Assembly: GCF_015234135.1 (NCBI RefSeq)
Contig: NZ_JADGIK010000002.1
Span: 1-64,000 of the forward strand
Origin: Faecalibacter rhinopitheci
GTDB taxonomy: Bacteria > Bacteroidota > Bacteroidia > Flavobacteriales > Weeksellaceae
Direction: 5' to 3'
Length of the DNA: 64,000 nucleotides
The notes beneath the pieces are model-generated. The model searched no databases, was not told the DNA's origin, and saw only the letters and a program-made list of their open reading frames with translations. Positions 9,787 to 16,978 of the stretch are shown piece by piece (position 1 is the first letter of the stretch; every line of letters begins with the position of its first letter). A program made the position numbers and the translations under genes.

Positions 9787-10653
9787 ATGTACAAAGATAT
9801 ATTAGAAGGAATTAGAATTAATTCAATTGAGGGGTTTATTAATACTATAAGAGATTTAGGAAATAGTATATCAGATACACCTGATAATTTGTGGTTTAGA
9901 GCTGAAAATGAAGCTTATGGTCATAGTCAATTGATACCTAGCTTTTATCGTGATTTTTCAAGAAAACAAGAAGATTGGTTTTTAGAATTAGACCAAGAAG
10001 CGTGTAATAATTTAAATTTGATTGAGGGCAATTTGAAATCTAAATTTAAAACATCAAGTTCTACTTATCATAGTATGAATAATTTTTTAGATAATGATTG
10101 GGAAATGTACTTTTTAATGCAACATTATGGGATTTCTACACGACTACTTGATTGGACTAAAAGTGCATTGATTGCGTTATATTTTTGTGTAGAAAAGGAA
10201 CCACAAACAGATGGAACGATTTGGTTACTTAATCCATATGAACTAAATAGATATTCAGATTTATATGAAGGTATTCAAGCTCAAACTCATCAATATATAT
10301 ATACCCCACAGACTGCTGAAAAAGAATTACAAAATGTAAATAATGAATTAACTAAATATTTGAATTTAGATTTAGATAAAAAGAGTCCAATTGCAATCAT
10401 GCCTACTTGGTTTGATGCACGTATGAAAAGCCAAAAGTCTTGCTTTACGATATTTGGAAGTCATATAAATGGATTATTAGCTAATAAGAATTGTAATAAG
10501 TTTTTACAAAAAATTGTTATTGAAAAATATTCAATGACAATTATAAAAAATGAATTAGCCTGGTTAGGAATTACCAATGAATCAATTTATCCAGGATTAG
10601 ATGGAATCGGGAAAGATATTATGAGTGAAACTAAAAGAATTTTATGTATCTAA
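9787..10653 (+). CDS. FRG domain-containing protein
   Basis: A 288-aa protein with the FRG signature: LWFRAENEAYGHSQLIPSF at residues ~36-54, then MQHYGISTRLLDWT and ALIALYFCVEK near 117-140, matching the family pattern QHYGxPTRLLDWT...ALYFA. The usual FRG triplet is here WFRAE. FRG genes are frequent in defence islands and some act in abortive anti-phage systems; the biochemical role here is unknown. It is a single gene with its own terminator at 10659. The neighbours are a Panacea toxin-antitoxin pair and a restriction system. Confidence 0.8.
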   Translation: MYKDILEGIRINSIEGFINTIRDLGNSISDTPDNLWFRAENEAYGHSQLIPSFYRDFSRKQEDWFLELDQEACNNLNLIEGNLKSKFKTSSSTYHSMNNFLDNDWEMYFLMQHYGISTRLLDWTKSALIALYFCVEKEPQTDGTIWLLNPYELNRYSDLYEGIQAQTHQYIYTPQTAEKELQNVNNELTKYLNLDLDKKSPIAIMPTWFDARMKSQKSCFTIFGSHINGLLANKNCNKFLQKIVIEKYSMTIIKNELAWLGITNESIYPGLDGIGKDIMSETKRILCI

Positions 10654-10753: not shown

Positions 10754-11197
10754 TTATAACAATTTTTTGTACTTGTTTTTCACCGAATCAGCTTCTTTAA
10801 AACATTTTATTACGGCTTGTAATTCGTTATCGTATAATTTACCGATATAATCATAATGAACTCCTTCAACGGGGTATTTCTCTTTAAATGATTGTGTTTC
10901 TAATATCGTTAGGTATGCACCGTATAAGAACGTATTTAAATCGAATGAAAAGCTTGTATCTTCTGTTACAATTTGACCAGCTTTGAAACAGTAAGATGTT
11001 TGATTCGCTACAGTAGATAAATCAATACATCCGTGTTCTACTTGCGTAGTCGCAGGAATATAATCTTTACTTGAGGGTAATGATATTAAAATTGAATTAT
11101 GTTTTTCAATATCCTTTATTACTAGAAAGTATTTGTTTTTTGATTGTCCATTTTCAAATACATAATCATAGATATAGAGAATTGTACCTTCCTTCAT
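10754..11197 (-). CDS. Putative toxin partner of Panacea antitoxin
   Basis: A 147-aa protein whose N-terminus (EGTILYIYDYVFENGQSKNKYFLVIKD) resembles the first strands of PemK/MazF-like folds. I see no clear catalytic motif. It starts 3 bp after the stop of the Panacea-domain gene at 11201-11782, the usual antitoxin-toxin order. Panacea (DUF4065) antitoxins are known to pair with many unrelated small toxins, so an unrecognised partner is expected. Function as a toxin is inferred from gene order and size. Confidence 0.55.
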   Translation of the reverse strand: MKEGTILYIYDYVFENGQSKNKYFLVIKDIEKHNSILISLPSSKDYIPATTQVEHGCIDLSTVANQTSYCFKAGQIVTEDTSFSFDLNTFLYGAYLTILETQSFKEKYPVEGVHYDYIGKLYDNELQAVIKCFKEADSVKNKYKKLL

Positions 11198-11200
11198 TGA

Positions 11201-11782
11201 TTAGAATGCTTTCGTAAAAGTTGTGAATTCTTTGTAATCGTGGTATAGATTCGCTTTTACTTGATCTTGTTTAATTAATTCTTCAAATTGAATTTCGTGA
11301 TTTGAAGTATTTTTAAATTTCTTATCGAAAGGTTCTAACAAATCATTTTTTAGAGCCACATTGTACCATAAACTCCCTTTTTGATGAGTAATATCAATTA
11401 ATTGATTTGCTGTAGCATTTTTAAATGATGCAGTAACTTCTTCTAATAATTTTAAATCATTCGTTGAGAATTCATCATCGTTAAATTCACCTTTACTTTT
11501 GATGTAAGTTGTATTATCTTGTCGGTCTAAAGTAATAAAACGATCTAAAAAAGTTAGTTCTTCTTCCTCTGCATTTAATTCAGCAAAAACTTCTTGACAA
11601 ACAGGACCAAGACGCCACACTTCATAATTAAACCCAAAAAAAGGAATACCAAACTTCTTTACTGCATATTCGTCTAATAAATAAATTAGTTTCAGTAATT
11701 TCGTTTTGGAAAGGTTTTCCATTCGATCGGCTAAATAAATAATCGTGTTGCCTAATTTGTCTATTTGTTCTTGTTTTGTCAT
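11201..11782 (-). CDS. Panacea domain (DUF4065) antitoxin-like protein
   Basis: A 193-aa protein with the Panacea/SocA pattern: LSKTKLLKLIYLLDEYAVKKFG at residues ~24-45, then FFGFNYEVWRLGPVCQEVF (~48-66), the family's xxYEVWRxGPV core. Panacea proteins neutralise diverse toxins in bacteria and phages, and SocA acts as a proteolytic adaptor in Caulobacter. The C-terminal ~50 residues are charged and may bind the toxin. It precedes the 147-aa partner by 3 bp on the minus strand, forming a two-gene operon. Confidence 0.8.
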   Translation of the reverse strand: MTKQEQIDKLGNTIIYLADRMENLSKTKLLKLIYLLDEYAVKKFGIPFFGFNYEVWRLGPVCQEVFAELNAEEEELTFLDRFITLDRQDNTTYIKSKGEFNDDEFSTNDLKLLEEVTASFKNATANQLIDITHQKGSLWYNVALKNDLLEPFDKKFKNTSNHEIQFEELIKQDQVKANLYHDYKEFTTFTKAF

Positions 11783-11884: not shown

Positions 11885-12505
11885 TTAAAAATCTGATTTG
11901 GTGGTTACAATATCAGGATTGTTTTTGATGAAAGATGTAACCGTAAGGCGATGGACCCCTAAAATTCGACCAATTGCGCTGTATGATACATTTTTGTCTA
12001 AAAGCTCTTTGATTTGTTTTTCTTGCCCTGTTAATTTGGTTTTGGACGACTTTCTTCCTTTTGGACGACCGAGAATAACACCTTCAGCTTTTTTGCGTGC
12101 TAATGCTTCTTTGGTACGTTGAGAGATTAGATTACGCTCGATTTCGGCGGAAAGCCCAAAAGCAAAAGCTAATACTTTTGAATTGATATCGCTCCCTAAT
12201 CTGTAATTGTCTTTGATGGTCCATACTTGGATGTCTCTGTTCATGCATTCGTTTAGGACTCCCATAATCATTAAGAGGTTACGCCCTAAACGAGATAGTT
12301 CGGAACAAACTAAGATATCGCCAGGTTTCATTTTTTTTAATAATTTCCCTAGTTTACGGTCTTCTACTTGCTTGGCTCCTGAAATTGTTTCTTCGATCCA
12401 TTTGCTTACGAATAGTTGTTGATTATCGCAGAATTGGTTGATTTCGAATCGTTGATTTTCTACTGTTTGTTTGTCTGTACTTACTCTGATGTATCCGTAA
12501 ATCAT
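11885..12505 (-). CDS. Serine recombinase, Mpi-type DNA invertase family
   Basis: A 206-aa small serine recombinase. The catalytic domain spans residues 1-~140, with YIRVSTDKQ (nucleophile Ser9), SELSRLGRN and the long E helix ending ERNLISQRTKEAL. GRPKGRKSS follows, then a C-terminal Hin-type helix-turn-helix (ISYSAIGRILGV-like, ~174-200). The length and layout match master invertases such as Mpi of Bacteroides, which flip promoters and gene cassettes. It lies ~110 bp from a silent, inverted copy of the specificity region of the adjacent restriction gene, its likely target. An ACAGTTTT/AAAACTGT inverted pair at about 12572-12610 could be its own control or binding site. Confidence 0.85.
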   Translation of the reverse strand: MIYGYIRVSTDKQTVENQRFEINQFCDNQQLFVSKWIEETISGAKQVEDRKLGKLLKKMKPGDILVCSELSRLGRNLLMIMGVLNECMNRDIQVWTIKDNYRLGSDINSKVLAFAFGLSAEIERNLISQRTKEALARKKAEGVILGRPKGRKSSKTKLTGQEKQIKELLDKNVSYSAIGRILGVHRLTVTSFIKNNPDIVTTKSDF

Positions 12506-12615
12506 TCTTCATTTAATTTGGTGCAAAAATGAAGAGAAATTGTCTAAAAAAAATAAAGACTATTTTTTTATACAGTTTTGGATTTATTTTATTTATCCGA
12601 TAAAAAACTGTTTAA

Positions 12616-13230
12616 AATAATCGACCTATTTTACGCGGCAGGGACATCAAAAAATACAGTTATGATTTTGCTGATTTATGGTTAATTACATCCCATAATG
12701 GGATCAAAGAAAAAGGCATAAAACCAGTCAATATAAACAATTACCCTGCAATTAAAGCACATTTGGACCAATTTTATCCTCAACTTGAAAAGCGAACGGA
12801 TAAAGGCGATACTCCTTATAACTTAAGGAACTGTGCTTATATGGACGATTTTTTTAGACCAAAAGTTATGTGGAAAATTATAGGTTCAAATATTAATTTC
12901 TGTTATGATGAACATTCGCATATGTGCAATAATGCCGTGAATATTATGATAGGGAGTGAAACTCAATTATTAAATTTTATGGGGTTAATGAATAGTAAAT
13001 TATATGATTGGTATTTAAAATTAACAACAACAGCTGAAGTACAAGGTGGTGGAGTTCAATTGTATTCAACTGTTTTAGAAAATATTCCGATTAATTTAAA
13101 TTTACCTTTTGAAATTAACGAAGTAATCAAATCAAGACTTAATAATATAGAATTGGATAACTACTTAAATACTACATTATATAAGTATTTTGAATTAAAT
13201 AGTGAAGAAATAGAATTTATTGAGAATTAA
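12616..13230 (+). pseudogene. Silent, inverted target-recognition cassette of the type IIG enzyme
   Basis: The frame is open from 12616 to the stop at 13230 (204 codons) with no start codon in the conserved first part. It encodes RPILRGRDIKKYSYDFADLW, the same block found at the start of the C-terminal specificity region of the restriction gene on the opposite strand (RPLLRGRDIKRYSYDFADLY). Divergent recognition sequence follows, then a shared YMDDFF motif, and an end (EEIEFIEN) matching the restriction gene's own end (EEIEFINSQ). It is an alternative 3' half stored in inverted orientation. It could be expressed only after inversion of ~1.18 kb. An internal ATG at 12763 is probably not a real start. 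Confidence 0.8.
12660..12679 (+). repeat. Inverted repeat arm 1 (possible crossover site)
   Basis: TTATGATTTTGCTGATTTAT matches the reverse complement of 13819-13838 at 19 of 20 bases. It encodes YDFADL in the silent cassette. An exchange here with its partner would swap the two recognition regions in frame. Confidence 0.6.
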
Positions 13231-13246
13231 TAAATTCTATTTCTTC
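13204..13246. repeat. Convergent 3'-end inverted repeat
   Basis: GAAGAAATAGAATTTATT and its exact complement, 18 bp each with a 6-7 bp gap, form the last codons of both the silent cassette and the restriction gene. The two frames overlap by 14 bp. It may double as a bidirectional terminator and shows that the two 3' ends share ancestry. Confidence 0.75.
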
Positions 13247-16200
13247 AACTGATAAATTATAGTTTTGATAAATTAATTCATCTATTAAAAATGTATTTTT
13301 CACAGGCTCGTTTAAATATTCATTAATTAAATCCTTATAATCTTTTAAAGAATTAGATATATGAAATTTATTAAAGAATGTATGTTTCATTCTTATTCCA
13401 TTTTCACCTAAACCACCTCCACCATAAAAATACTTTATGCTAAAGAAAAATAATTTTGAATTCATTAGTAATAAAAGAATATTTAAATCTTTTCCAATAA
13501 TAAATCTAGCAGTATCTAAACATAGGAATTTTCCTTCAATGTCAAGTACAAAACTAGATTCTTGTACCATTTCTTGAAAAAGAATTTTCTGTTGAAAAAA
13601 ATCGTCCATATAATTTGCTCCCCAACGTTGTAAAGCATACCATTCGTAACGTATTCCCGTTTCTGCTTGATTACGGTTTGATAATTCAGTTTTAAATTTT
13701 AATAAGTGATTATATATTGCAGGGTATTGATTCTTAAATGCTTCTTCCGCTTCTAAGGATGCTCCTTTAATATTTGGATCTTTATGTAAAGGGAAATGCC
13801 AAGGAATATAAAGTAAGTATAAATCCGCAAAATCATAAGAATAACGCTTAATATCACGTCCACGTAGTAACGGTCGTATAATTTCGGCAGATTTTGGGTC
13901 TTGATTTATTAGTTCTTCGCGCTTTTTACCATCAATAATAAATGCATCATTAAATCCTGTTTTAATGCCATAATTTATTCTAATATCCCAATCCTTTAAA
14001 GGTGTACCAACTGCTTCTATTTTCGCCTTTATGCTTTGCTCTATGGGAGATAAAACCACCCAACTTTCAGGAGAATTGAAGTCGGTTAATGTTTGGTTTT
14101 GACTAAAATAATCCCCCAAATTATTTATCACTTTTTCTTTTACAATACAAGCTAGGGTTTGGTGTTGATTTTGTTGTTTCTTAAACATTAGGATATTGGT
14201 ATCAACAGTTGCAGAATCAAATATTTGAATCCCACCAAAATCAATTAAAATTTTAGGATTTGTTTTCTCTATAAAATATTGTCTTAAGCTTTCCCCATAG
14301 GCCGCACGCATCCATTTATTGGATGTGATAAATATTAAGCAGCCGTTTATATTTAAAATATTATTACCCAATTCGTAAAACAAACTGTAGATATCGCCCG
14401 TGCGCGCAAACGACGCATACCCTAATTTTTGAAGCATTTCGCTTGCTTCCTTCATTTTCTGTAATTGAATATAAGGCGGATTCCCAATGATGACATCAAA
14501 GCCTAAGTAAGAACCATCATCGGCTAGAACTTCCGGAAACTCGAAACGCCACTCGAAACTATTTTGGAACATTACGTTGTCCAAAATTTCTTGTTTCTCT
14601 TTTTCTAGTTTTTCAGCTTTAAGTTTTAATTTTTTTAAATTGTCTTTGTCCGCTTTTTTAATCTTTTCGCCAAATAATACTAAGTTATCTAAACGAAGCT
14701 TTTCATTTTCGAACTCACCTATGGCTTTTGAAATTTTTTCTTTGATTTTAGCATCTAAAGTTGTTCTGAAATTATTTTTGATGTTTCGGATAATGGTTTC
14801 AACTTCCCCTTTTTTCGCCTTGCTATTGGTTTGTTTATACTCGCTTACGGCTGCTTTATAATCTTCAATCGAATAGCCCACTTCTTTGTTTTTGAAGGCT
14901 TGTTTTAAACTATCGTCTAATTTAAAACGGCTTACTAATGAGTTCCCGCATTTGATGTTGATGTCAATATTCGGTAAAGTTTGCAGTTCTCCTTCAGAAG
15001 TGTAATAAGCATTCTTTAACAACTCTATCCATAATCGTAAACGACAAATATTTACTGAATTTGGATTGATATCTACTCCAAATAAACAATTTTCGATTAG
15101 CGTTTGTTTCTCATGGAATAATGTTTTCTGAATGCGTAGGCTATTTACATCTTGACGATTGTATTCGAATAATTCGCCTTCGTTGTAAGCAATGTATAAT
15201 TCATCGTTCTCTACCGTCACTTCACAAGGAATTTTTTCACCTTGTTCGTTTGCTAGAATCCCTAATTCGCTTTTCACTGCAATTAATTCGTTTAAAGCCG
15301 AAACTAAGAAATGTCCAGAACCAACTGCTGGATCACAAATTTTTAAATTATTGATGGTATTGTTGAACTTGATGCGATCATCTTTTTTAAAGAAATTTTC
15401 ACAGTAATCTTTTACATCATCAAAAGTTTCGATAGATGAATGATGTTCATCTTTAAATTTATCTACCACAGCCTCTCTTATGGCTTCTTTGCACATAAAC
15501 ATCGTTATATATCCAGGCGTATAGAAGGAACCGTCTTTGTATCCGTTGATTTTTTCGAAGATAAGACCTAAGACCGAAGCATTGATTAATGTTTTACCAT
15601 TTTGTTCTTCTTCGATATCTGTATTGGCATCCGCAGAAAAATCGTAAGCATCTAAAAACCTAAAAATGTAATCGAGCGTATTTAGTTTACCGGTTAATTT
15701 TTTACCGTTGTTATCTTTTAATACTGTACCTGAATAGACTTGCATTTCTTCGTCTTTCAGTGCCGTAATATCGAATGTTAAACGCTCCATTTCACTATGT
15801 TCGAACAAGCTACTGTTTAAGTATGGAATATGTTTGAAACGTTCTTTGTATTTGTCGTGACGTTCGTTTAATGGTTTTGCCAATGCAGAAAAGAATAAAT
15901 CATTTAATGCATCGTAGCCGTTTAGAAAATCGAAGTTTAGGAATTTATAATCTTTGGACTTGTTGTAACTGACCAATTGAGATTCTAATAACTTTAGAAA
16001 CAAAATACGATTGATCCAATTGATGCATAATTCTAATCCTACATTAAACGCTTTTTCTGGCGAGTTTGGAATATGAGTTACACGGTCTAAATAATTTTTA
16101 TCTTCTAAAGTAAAAATGGTATTTTCTAGGATTGAAGCATAATCACGTTCTTTTACCTCTTTTCGAACAATCACCTTTTTAGAACCTGTTTTTTCTTTGA

Positions 16201-16978
16201 TTTCTTCTAACCCAATAATATGCAGTAATTCTTTGTAGAAATCGCTATTTAGCTTATTGCTATCGTTACCAAATGCTTTACCTAATAAATGCGTATCTGA
16301 AAATAATTTGTACAAGTTACTGATCTTCGTATCGTTGTATTTGGTAATTTCTTTCGAATCTAGCTTAACGTGTATATAAGGTAAAACATCTTTTACCTTT
16401 TCAATATAAGTTGCAGCAATTTCTTTATAAAATAGTTCGTTTTTTGCAGTGTCTTTTAAACCATCACGGAAACGCGCATATTCTTTTGCTAACTCTGCAT
16501 TTTTGTAAAAATGATCGTAGAAGTCTTCCCCTTTGAAAAAGAACCATTCGAAACCATTAGTCACAATAATCTGTTTGATGTTGTTATTCTTATAATCGAT
16601 ACGTTCGCGTAGGTAGTATAAAAGGACTTCCTGTAGCGCTTTTTTATTGATATTAGTTGTAGAAATAAATTCGGCTTTGTTGCTAGGCCTTTTTGCTTCT
16701 ATAATCACACCTACATCGCTTTTAGCTGTATTATCTAAATAAATGGCTAAGTCGATACGATCTTTGGTATTGATTAAGTTTTTTTGGTAAAAAGTATTCG
16801 TTAAAAAGCGCTTGATCGGTTCTTTAAGATGTTCCTCCGATTCGTTTCTGTTGTCACTGATTTCAATGGACTCTAAACAGGCTAATAATTCAGATTTAAA
16901 ATTATCAACGTCTTTACGGATTGGTTTAAATTGACGATAAGCAGGATTTAAAGCTTTAACGATAGTTACCATTTTCAT
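13217..16978 (-). CDS. Type IIG (Eco57I-like) restriction endonuclease-methyltransferase
   Basis: A 1,253-aa fused restriction-modification enzyme. Near residues ~75-100 lies a PD-(D/E)xK nuclease-like pattern (RIDLAIYLDN...VGVIIEAKR). The N6-adenine methyltransferase domain follows, with motif I LKICDPAVGSGHF at ~540 and catalytic NPPY in VIIGNPPYIQL at ~830. The C-terminal ~250 residues (after RPLLRGRDIKRYSYDF) form the target-recognition region. One polypeptide therefore cuts and methylates. The start ATG at 16978-16976 gives MKMVTIVKALNP; another Met two codons on is possible. An inverted alternative recognition cassette abuts its 3' end and a serine invertase follows, so specificity is probably switchable. 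Confidence 0.9.
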   Translation of the reverse strand: MKMVTIVKALNPAYRQFKPIRKDVDNFKSELLACLESIEISDNRNESEEHLKEPIKRFLTNTFYQKNLINTKDRIDLAIYLDNTAKSDVGVIIEAKRPSNKAEFISTTNINKKALQEVLLYYLRERIDYKNNNIKQIIVTNGFEWFFFKGEDFYDHFYKNAELAKEYARFRDGLKDTAKNELFYKEIAATYIEKVKDVLPYIHVKLDSKEITKYNDTKISNLYKLFSDTHLLGKAFGNDSNKLNSDFYKELLHIIGLEEIKEKTGSKKVIVRKEVKERDYASILENTIFTLEDKNYLDRVTHIPNSPEKAFNVGLELCINWINRILFLKLLESQLVSYNKSKDYKFLNFDFLNGYDALNDLFFSALAKPLNERHDKYKERFKHIPYLNSSLFEHSEMERLTFDITALKDEEMQVYSGTVLKDNNGKKLTGKLNTLDYIFRFLDAYDFSADANTDIEEEQNGKTLINASVLGLIFEKINGYKDGSFYTPGYITMFMCKEAIREAVVDKFKDEHHSSIETFDDVKDYCENFFKKDDRIKFNNTINNLKICDPAVGSGHFLVSALNELIAVKSELGILANEQGEKIPCEVTVENDELYIAYNEGELFEYNRQDVNSLRIQKTLFHEKQTLIENCLFGVDINPNSVNICRLRLWIELLKNAYYTSEGELQTLPNIDINIKCGNSLVSRFKLDDSLKQAFKNKEVGYSIEDYKAAVSEYKQTNSKAKKGEVETIIRNIKNNFRTTLDAKIKEKISKAIGEFENEKLRLDNLVLFGEKIKKADKDNLKKLKLKAEKLEKEKQEILDNVMFQNSFEWRFEFPEVLADDGSYLGFDVIIGNPPYIQLQKMKEASEMLQKLGYASFARTGDIYSLFYELGNNILNINGCLIFITSNKWMRAAYGESLRQYFIEKTNPKILIDFGGIQIFDSATVDTNILMFKKQQNQHQTLACIVKEKVINNLGDYFSQNQTLTDFNSPESWVVLSPIEQSIKAKIEAVGTPLKDWDIRINYGIKTGFNDAFIIDGKKREELINQDPKSAEIIRPLLRGRDIKRYSYDFADLYLLYIPWHFPLHKDPNIKGASLEAEEAFKNQYPAIYNHLLKFKTELSNRNQAETGIRYEWYALQRWGANYMDDFFQQKILFQEMVQESSFVLDIEGKFLCLDTARFIIGKDLNILLLLMNSKLFFFSIKYFYGGGGLGENGIRMKHTFFNKFHISNSLKDYKDLINEYLNEPVKNTFLIDELIYQNYNLSVEEIEFINSQ
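13819..13838 (-). repeat. Inverted repeat arm 2 (possible crossover site)
   Basis: Partner of 12660-12679, on the opposite strand inside the expressed restriction gene, one mismatch in 20 bp. It marks the start of the variable recognition region at SYDFADL. Confidence 0.6.

Follow-up and report, generated by a model that had tools for sequence, protein, structure and literature searches.

The locus described here is very probably a self-contained specificity switch of a single-chain type IIG restriction enzyme, for which four forms are predicted. It lies in a window of 64,000 nucleotides from Faecalibacter rhinopitheci, by which we mean the whole stretch of DNA that was analyzed. In the proposed mechanism, the nuclease and methyltransferase parts would stay fixed while the C-terminal recognition domain is exchanged with an unexpressed copy in the opposite orientation, and an Mpi-family invertase most probably recombines two nested pairs of inverted sites. 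Inversion at the outer site, ATnATnCGACC, located at the boundary of the methyltransferase and recognition parts, would swap the whole recognition domain, and inversion at the inner site, WGGA[C/G]GATTT, located in a Y-x-D/E-D-F block, would swap its second half only. Because the recognition domain is common to both activities, nuclease and methyltransferase would switch specificity together. Each form would read a different DNA sequence, so that cells of one population would differ. We infer that the invertase catalyses the inversion and that switching takes place in the strain of the window.

As in a specificity inverton, the inverted sites allow an in-frame exchange of domains, and both orientations occur in relatives as judged by cassette type. 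The preliminary description of this DNA had already proposed specificity switching by inversion, and this reading is supported by the opposite phases of relatives, selection on the silent copies, contig ends at the sites and a reading frame that stays open on in-silico inversion.

Type IIG enzyme, silent cassette and invertase

The enzyme gene encodes a putative nuclease, a methyltransferase and a recognition domain in one chain, which is the type IIG architecture (Table 1). The PADLOC model REase_MTase_IIG covered residues 9–1251 of the protein (E 5.3e-275), and the Pfam domains along it were, in order, DUF7149, DUF7814, Eco57I and a weak TaqI_C, which in the expressed recognition copy scored 25.0 bits, slightly below the cut-off of 26.5. 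The DUF7149 region contains an E-A-K motif at residue 94 and is the presumed nuclease domain. The methyltransferase motif NPPY was found at residue 833, and DPAVGSGHF at residue 549, ahead of the Eco57I region. BREX PglX was rejected as an identity for the protein (83.9 bits against a curated cut-off of 500), and no further BREX matches were found among the seven proteins scanned. A 15-row alignment gave a poor AlphaFold model of residues 490–1253 (mean pLDDT 49.7, pTM 0.35).

Table 1. Coordinates of the features at the type IIG locus (window positions; h1 and h2, first and second half of a recognition domain)
Feature	Position	Strand	Basis or remark
Mpi-family serine invertase, 206 aa	11885..12505	-	NF009949
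Outer site, silent copy, AAAATAATCGACC	12614..12626	+	exact run common with expressed copy is CGACC only
Silent recognition domain, open frame, startless	12616-13230	+	convergent to IIG gene, overlap at stop codons
Silent h1 (77-aa type)	12622..12852	+	94.8% to G214 expressed h1
Outer invertible segment (predicted), 1,255 bp	12622..13876	.	in-silico inversion in frame
20-bp repeat of the preliminary description, silent copy	12660..12679	+	inside conserved h1 start
Inner site, silent copy, TTATATGGACGATTTTTTT	12837..12855	+	19 bp identical to expressed copy
Silent h2 (125 aa + stop)	12853..13230	+	open frame, YxDDF split
Perfect inverted repeat, 19 nt, 7-nt loop	13203..13247	.	formed by two convergent EEIEFI ends
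Type IIG restriction enzyme-methyltransferase gene, 1,253 aa	13217..16978	-	ORF, PADLOC, Pfam
Expressed h2 (second half, 126 aa)	13220..13597	-	split at YxDDF
Inner site, expressed copy, same 19 bp	13595..13613	-	inverted-repeat search
Expressed h1 (first half, 93-aa type)	13598..13876	-	split at YxDDF
20-bp repeat of the preliminary description, expressed copy	13819..13838	-	inside conserved h1 start
Outer site, expressed copy, GAAATTATACGACC	13872..13885	-	codons E-I-I-R-P, residues 1032-1036
Eco57I-type adenine methyltransferase region, residues 630-920	14219..15091	-	Pfam E 1e-39
N-terminal DUF7149 region, residues 6-239	16262..16963	-	Pfam E 2.2e-78

The silent cassette matched the description given of it beforehand, a startless inverted frame facing the recognition region. 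It is open throughout, begins two codons ahead of RPILRG, straight after a stop codon, and offers no start for its full length. The silent domain matched TaqI_C (E 2.2e-14), and the translations of both copies opened with RPxLRGRDIKxYSYDFADL and closed with EEIEFI, again as claimed, followed by two or three residues. The inverted repeat formed by these convergent ends may be a two-way terminator of the two frames. The adjoining gene was likewise correctly named as an Mpi-type serine invertase: it scored 348.5 bits (cut-off 272) with NF009949, 'master DNA invertase Mpi family', contained the resolvase N-terminal domain PF00239 (E 6.2e-34) and was the only match to the Mpi family in the 2.89-Mb genome.

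A 20-bp inverted pair had been proposed as the boundary of the invertible segment. The pair is real and beyond chance, since 60 Markov resamplings gave no one-mismatch inverted match longer than 16 nt, compared with the 20 nt observed. The pattern TTATGATTTTGC[T/G]GATTTAT had exact matches in the genome at these two copies only, and 15 further places matched it with 2–3 mismatches. The pair does not bound the segment, however, but sits inside it, and is conserved coding sequence, namely the protein start common to both cassettes. It was rejected as a crossover because, in the window and its congener at locus L049, the head that starts right after CGACC travels with the cassette.

Directly beyond the invertase, positions 10754–11782 (−) hold a SocA/Panacea-domain antitoxin gene (11201–11782) and a 147-aa open reading frame, likely a toxin–antitoxin pair. 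An FRG-domain protein at 9787–10653 (+) matched the PADLOC candidate defence family PDC-S15 (E 3.2e-41), and together with the SocA/Panacea pair it looks like a small defence island.

Occurrence of the module in relatives

One set of relatives comprised 10 loci from a scan of genome contigs. In the family-wide search, a type IIG match at E ≤ 1e-100 was found in 32 of 320 genomes, the window's own genome included; the 32 family loci treated here are 31 loci of relatives plus the window, with genome G014 left out. The whole module, consisting of an expressed domain, a convergent silent domain and then an invertase in the same orientation, was present in 21 of the 32, so the search of relatives that had been recommended did recover the same cassette arrangement. 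The other 11 comprised five loci cut by contig ends, two decayed ones (L065 and L071) and four that lack the module. Among the 21 modules, L070 was decayed, and in L056 and L068 the expressed copy was interrupted by stops or a break of frame. The invertase lay 96–342 bp from the silent copy in 20 modules and 1,532 bp away in one, its presence being part of the criterion by which a module was counted.

At E ≤ 1e-150 the enzyme was found in 14 of 395 genomes of the order and 30 of 395 of the phylum, counting the window's own each time, in draws that overlap with the family set. An invertase within the 1.5-kb flanks was seen at only one of the 35 order and phylum loci scanned, Pedobacter L134, which by its coordinates is the same locus as L010. 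The plasmid collection yielded the module on Lactococcus plasmids, joined to a helicase-plus-methylase system; related plasmids were annotated with the methylase and without the silent copy and invertase. Two such loci, L163 and L164, couple the inversion module to a helicase and an N-6 methylase, with h1 in opposite phases and an identical invertase. For the plasmid Mpi genes of Pedobacter, Aureispira, Desulforapulum, Treponema and Parabacteroides, no convergent recognition domain was found among the neighbours listed in the plasmid gene tables, which are incomplete. In Prevotella nigrescens (L179, NZ_CP082843.1), an Mpi invertase lies by two short Eco57I-domain genes that face an N-6 methylase on the opposite strand; this may be a module that holds more than two cassettes.

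When the window was compared with 9.5 kb around the copy in congener G214, DNA similarity was restricted to the module, as though it were mobile as a whole. In another congener (G211, locus L050), the enzyme is 99% identical up to residue 945 and is followed by unrelated genes, and no invertase match was found in the G211 genome.

Proposed exchange sites and the silent copies

The outer crossover was placed by relatives and by contig ends at ATnATnCGACC, which encodes Ile-Ile-Arg-Pro. In the window and G214 (locus L049) both flanks are alike and the heads are exchanged immediately after CGACC: the window's silent h1 is 94.8% identical to the h1 that G214 expresses, and, past its start, nothing in G214 corresponds to the window's expressed h1, which is of the 93-aa type. 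L062 and L069 come from different species of the same genus, and the domain expressed in either one corresponds to the silent domain of the other (79.4% and 80.4%). Their DNA is similar from expressed to expressed copy through GAAATnATACGACC and from expressed to silent copy afterwards, the switch falling at ATnATACGACC. Two Lactococcus plasmids that encode an identical invertase protein have exchanged h1 (99.2% over 496 bp, 85.2% over 535 bp), and their second halves differ. Relatives thus carry corresponding cassettes in opposite phases, by cassette type, which answers the suggestion that the opposite orientation be sought in other assemblies. Given a crossover at CGACC in relatives, the outer segment would span 12622–13876. 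The earlier prediction of an invertible segment of ~1.18 kb is kept, but its size is corrected to 1,255 bp, with the crossover 38 bp outside the 20-bp pair at each end. In silico inversion of this segment yielded an in-frame product of 1,236 aa. Because the window's outer sites share exactly CGACC only, the inversion rate could be low. Within-locus matching at the outer site was weak (best p = 0.027 among many windows) and was set aside as evidence because CGACC is nearly constant; a search of three genomes with a narrow pattern for the head motif at this site gave no matches.

Contig ends in or beside the modules of relatives fell exactly at a crossover site in 5 of 12 cases, three at the outer site (G320 C8, G320 C23 and G266 C8) and two at the inner site (G194 C26 and G219 C7). 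The seven off-site ends were G194 C108, which begins 10 bp outside the inner block; G266 C4, which runs 113 bp past the outer site into the domain; two in G178 that adjoin a 300-bp identical repeat; two in G011 that lie in h2; and that of L012, at residue 988. In G320 (Sphingobacterium endophyticum), the enzyme-core contig ends and the invertase contig starts at ...GAAATTATACGACC, and these two flanking ends have just 18 bp in common, which is shorter than the usual assembly words. A contig stops at the last common base when the reads hold two continuations, and both orientations were therefore probably present in the G320 culture, as far as assembly behaviour tells. No recognition domain turned up in the G320 genome when the window's silent domain served as the query. 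Taken over the relatives with contig ends at sites, the pattern suggests mixed orientations in their cultures.

The preliminary description missed a second inverted pair, nested within the first, which spans 31 nt at 84% identity and includes 19 identical nt. Its claim of an in-frame swap held up in silico and has to be enlarged by this inner site: the outer and inner inversions both keep the frame, and therefore four enzymes, rather than two, are predicted from one gene (1,253, 1,236, 1,252 and 1,237 aa). When 39 domains were split at the Y-x-D/E-D-F block, they formed five h1 clusters and 15 h2 clusters, and four of the h2 clusters were paired with more than one h1 type. The expressed domain of L063 and the silent domain of L064, for example, are identical in h1 and only 30% identical in h2. 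The wobble base of the D/E codon at the inner site was equal in both copies in 17 of 18 loci, L053 being the exception, and on the tree this base changed at least four times with both copies agreeing. A pair permutation over windows containing the wobble base gave p = 0.0005, which is the floor of 2,000 permutations and applies to 17 loci (one near-duplicate dropped), with kinship ignored and many windows scanned. The flanks of the inner site within one locus were less alike than random pairs. A matching wobble base between unlike flanks was read as suggestive that the two copies need identical sequence at the inner exchange point. A kinship-controlled version of the test had only three independent pairs, all concordant (p = 0.25).

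We incline moderately toward a nested two-site shufflon in one open reading frame, with two coding sites, one dedicated invertase, two recognition half-domains that are permuted independently of each other and four specificities, whose inner pair is matched only within its own locus and whose module is portable, occurring in at least two R-M architectures and two phyla. The strongest competing account, which we regard as possible though rather unlikely, is that only the outer inversion is real, giving two forms, and that half-domains have been reassorted over evolution by homologous recombination or gene transfer at YxDDF. Since this block is conserved in the protein, DNA similarity is expected there, and 24–29 bp are indeed identical at the block in five loci; the underpowered kinship-controlled test leaves further room for this account. 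It fits poorly, however, with the exact stop of the G194 and G219 contigs at the block. The G194 enzyme contig terminates exactly at the inner block, and in the same assembly a single h1 tail, comprising 10 bp and the block, is continued on the invertase contig by two different second halves. The G219 contig terminates at the opposite edge of the block, at the last base common to two kinds of h1. The equality of the wobble base, its coordinated changes and the unlike flanks also speak against exchange at the outer site only.

It is improbable that the swaps result from RecA-type recombination between repeats while the invertase serves other sites. This account could draw on L053, where the outer sites form a 63-bp perfect repeat that could be used by homologous recombination, and on the pneumococcal spnIII locus, which is reported to recombine independently of known site-specific recombinases (PMC6620402). 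On the other side, every one of the 21 modules has an invertase of this family next to its silent copy and in a constant orientation, its presence being part of the count. The exact run shared at the outer site is moreover 5 bp in 6 of 19 loci (the window included), at most 19 bp in 18 of 19 and 18 bp in G320, and such short runs are inadequate for efficient homologous recombination.

Selection on the silent copies and the pairing of unlike copies within loci both count in favour of the switch. Comparing L052 with L054, dN/dS was 0.070 for the silent pair and 0.084 for the expressed pair. The window's silent h1 against G214 gave dN 0.022 and dS 0.406, a ratio of about 0.05. Eight of 11 domain pairs, most of them with a silent copy, had dN/dS of 0.06–0.16, values that are rough because dS exceeded 1 in six of the eight. 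The other three were 0.24 (from very few changes), undefined and 0.43, the last being the window's whole silent domain against G214. The best relative of the window's silent h2 in the set is 30–33% identical, and the constraint estimate covers silent h1. Decay of silent cassettes in relatives had been raised beforehand as a point against switching. The modules of L065, L070 and L071 are decayed; purifying selection is the prevailing mode among silent cassettes.

Wherever a locus had two full domains (18 loci), its copies fell in different clusters for both h1 and h2; no locus shared an h1 cluster between its copies, whereas 5.9 loci on average would do so at random (P 0.0006, kinship ignored). 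Judged by the final head residue, each of the 18 loci also paired a W-type copy with a Y/H-type copy; the expressed one was W-type in 11 loci and Y/H-type in seven. This marking of phase is a convenience, as W occurs in two 93-aa-type domains. The core tree, which has 19 loci, required at least six phase changes. An exception to the rule of unlike pairs is G178 (L058/L088), whose two cassettes share their h1 (300 bp identical) and differ in h2; it is outside the 18-locus set as contigs cut its domains.

We consider it quite unlikely that the second domain is translated alone and functions in trans, as a specificity or regulatory protein of its own. An upstream in-frame ATG was found in 10 of 19 silent copies, nine of them starting MS, but the window and congener L049 are without such an ATG, their open frame beginning two codons upstream, and phases are exchanged between species. 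The silent copies of L051–L054, L062–L064, L068 and L069 have an extra upstream segment with an MS start from ATG and could be translated alone. Least probable of all, and very much so, is that the silent domain is an unused relic of gene duplication, as the startless window copy with its upstream stop and the decayed modules might suggest, given the open frame, the low dN/dS values of the eight comparisons and of the window's silent h1, and the phases swapped between relatives.

Comparison with known systems

If the proposed switch operates, an enzyme that cuts and methylates with one chain could change specificity by inversion and keep both activities matched, which would be an advantage over two-gene type II systems, and populations would have mixed phage barriers and mixed methylomes. 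The five h1 and 15 h2 clusters offer a natural library for finding out how DNA is read by TaqI_C-type domains, and the sites are a lead to the sequences that Mpi-family invertases recognize. Among the matches listed from the open-access literature, none reported inversion of a type IIG recognition domain, nor a single-chain IIG enzyme in which nested half-domain sites are combined with a recombinase of the Mpi type.

A type I hsdS inverton was rejected as a class for the locus, which has a single-chain IIG enzyme in place of separate hsdM, hsdR and hsdS genes. Half-domain (TRD1/TRD2) recombination occurs in type I hsdS systems, and 'epigenetic invertons' were reportedly surveyed in Nucleic Acids Research in 2020. 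For type I hsdS genes, inversion is well documented as a way of swapping recognition domains (PMC7394358, PMC5903667). The inverting type I systems (for example pneumococcal SpnIII/cod; REBASE survey PMC7394358) resemble the window in having inverted silent recognition domains and in changing specificity rather than turning it on or off. They differ in that specificity in the window resides in the C-terminus of a single-chain IIG enzyme instead of a separate HsdS, that the recombinase is an Mpi-type serine invertase and that the silent copy is a startless tail.

The type IIG enzyme of Campylobacter jejuni switches expression, through a homopolymer tract, whereas a change of specificity by inversion is predicted for the window locus. 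Phase variation of the C. jejuni enzyme has been described (PMC4889913). Mpi of Bacteroides fragilis appears in passages of two articles as a master invertase that flips many distant promoters (PMC5903667, PMC4747536). The window invertase belongs to the same recombinase family by name and by NF009949, but is encoded by one gene copy beside coding-region sites. Layout, domain class and recombinase family are the same in the Lactococcus plasmid module (pUCCL629A, pJM1F), which combines a helicase, an N-6 methylase, an inverted TaqI_C-type domain and Mpi, and which sits on a helicase-plus-methylase system where that of the window sits on a type IIG enzyme.
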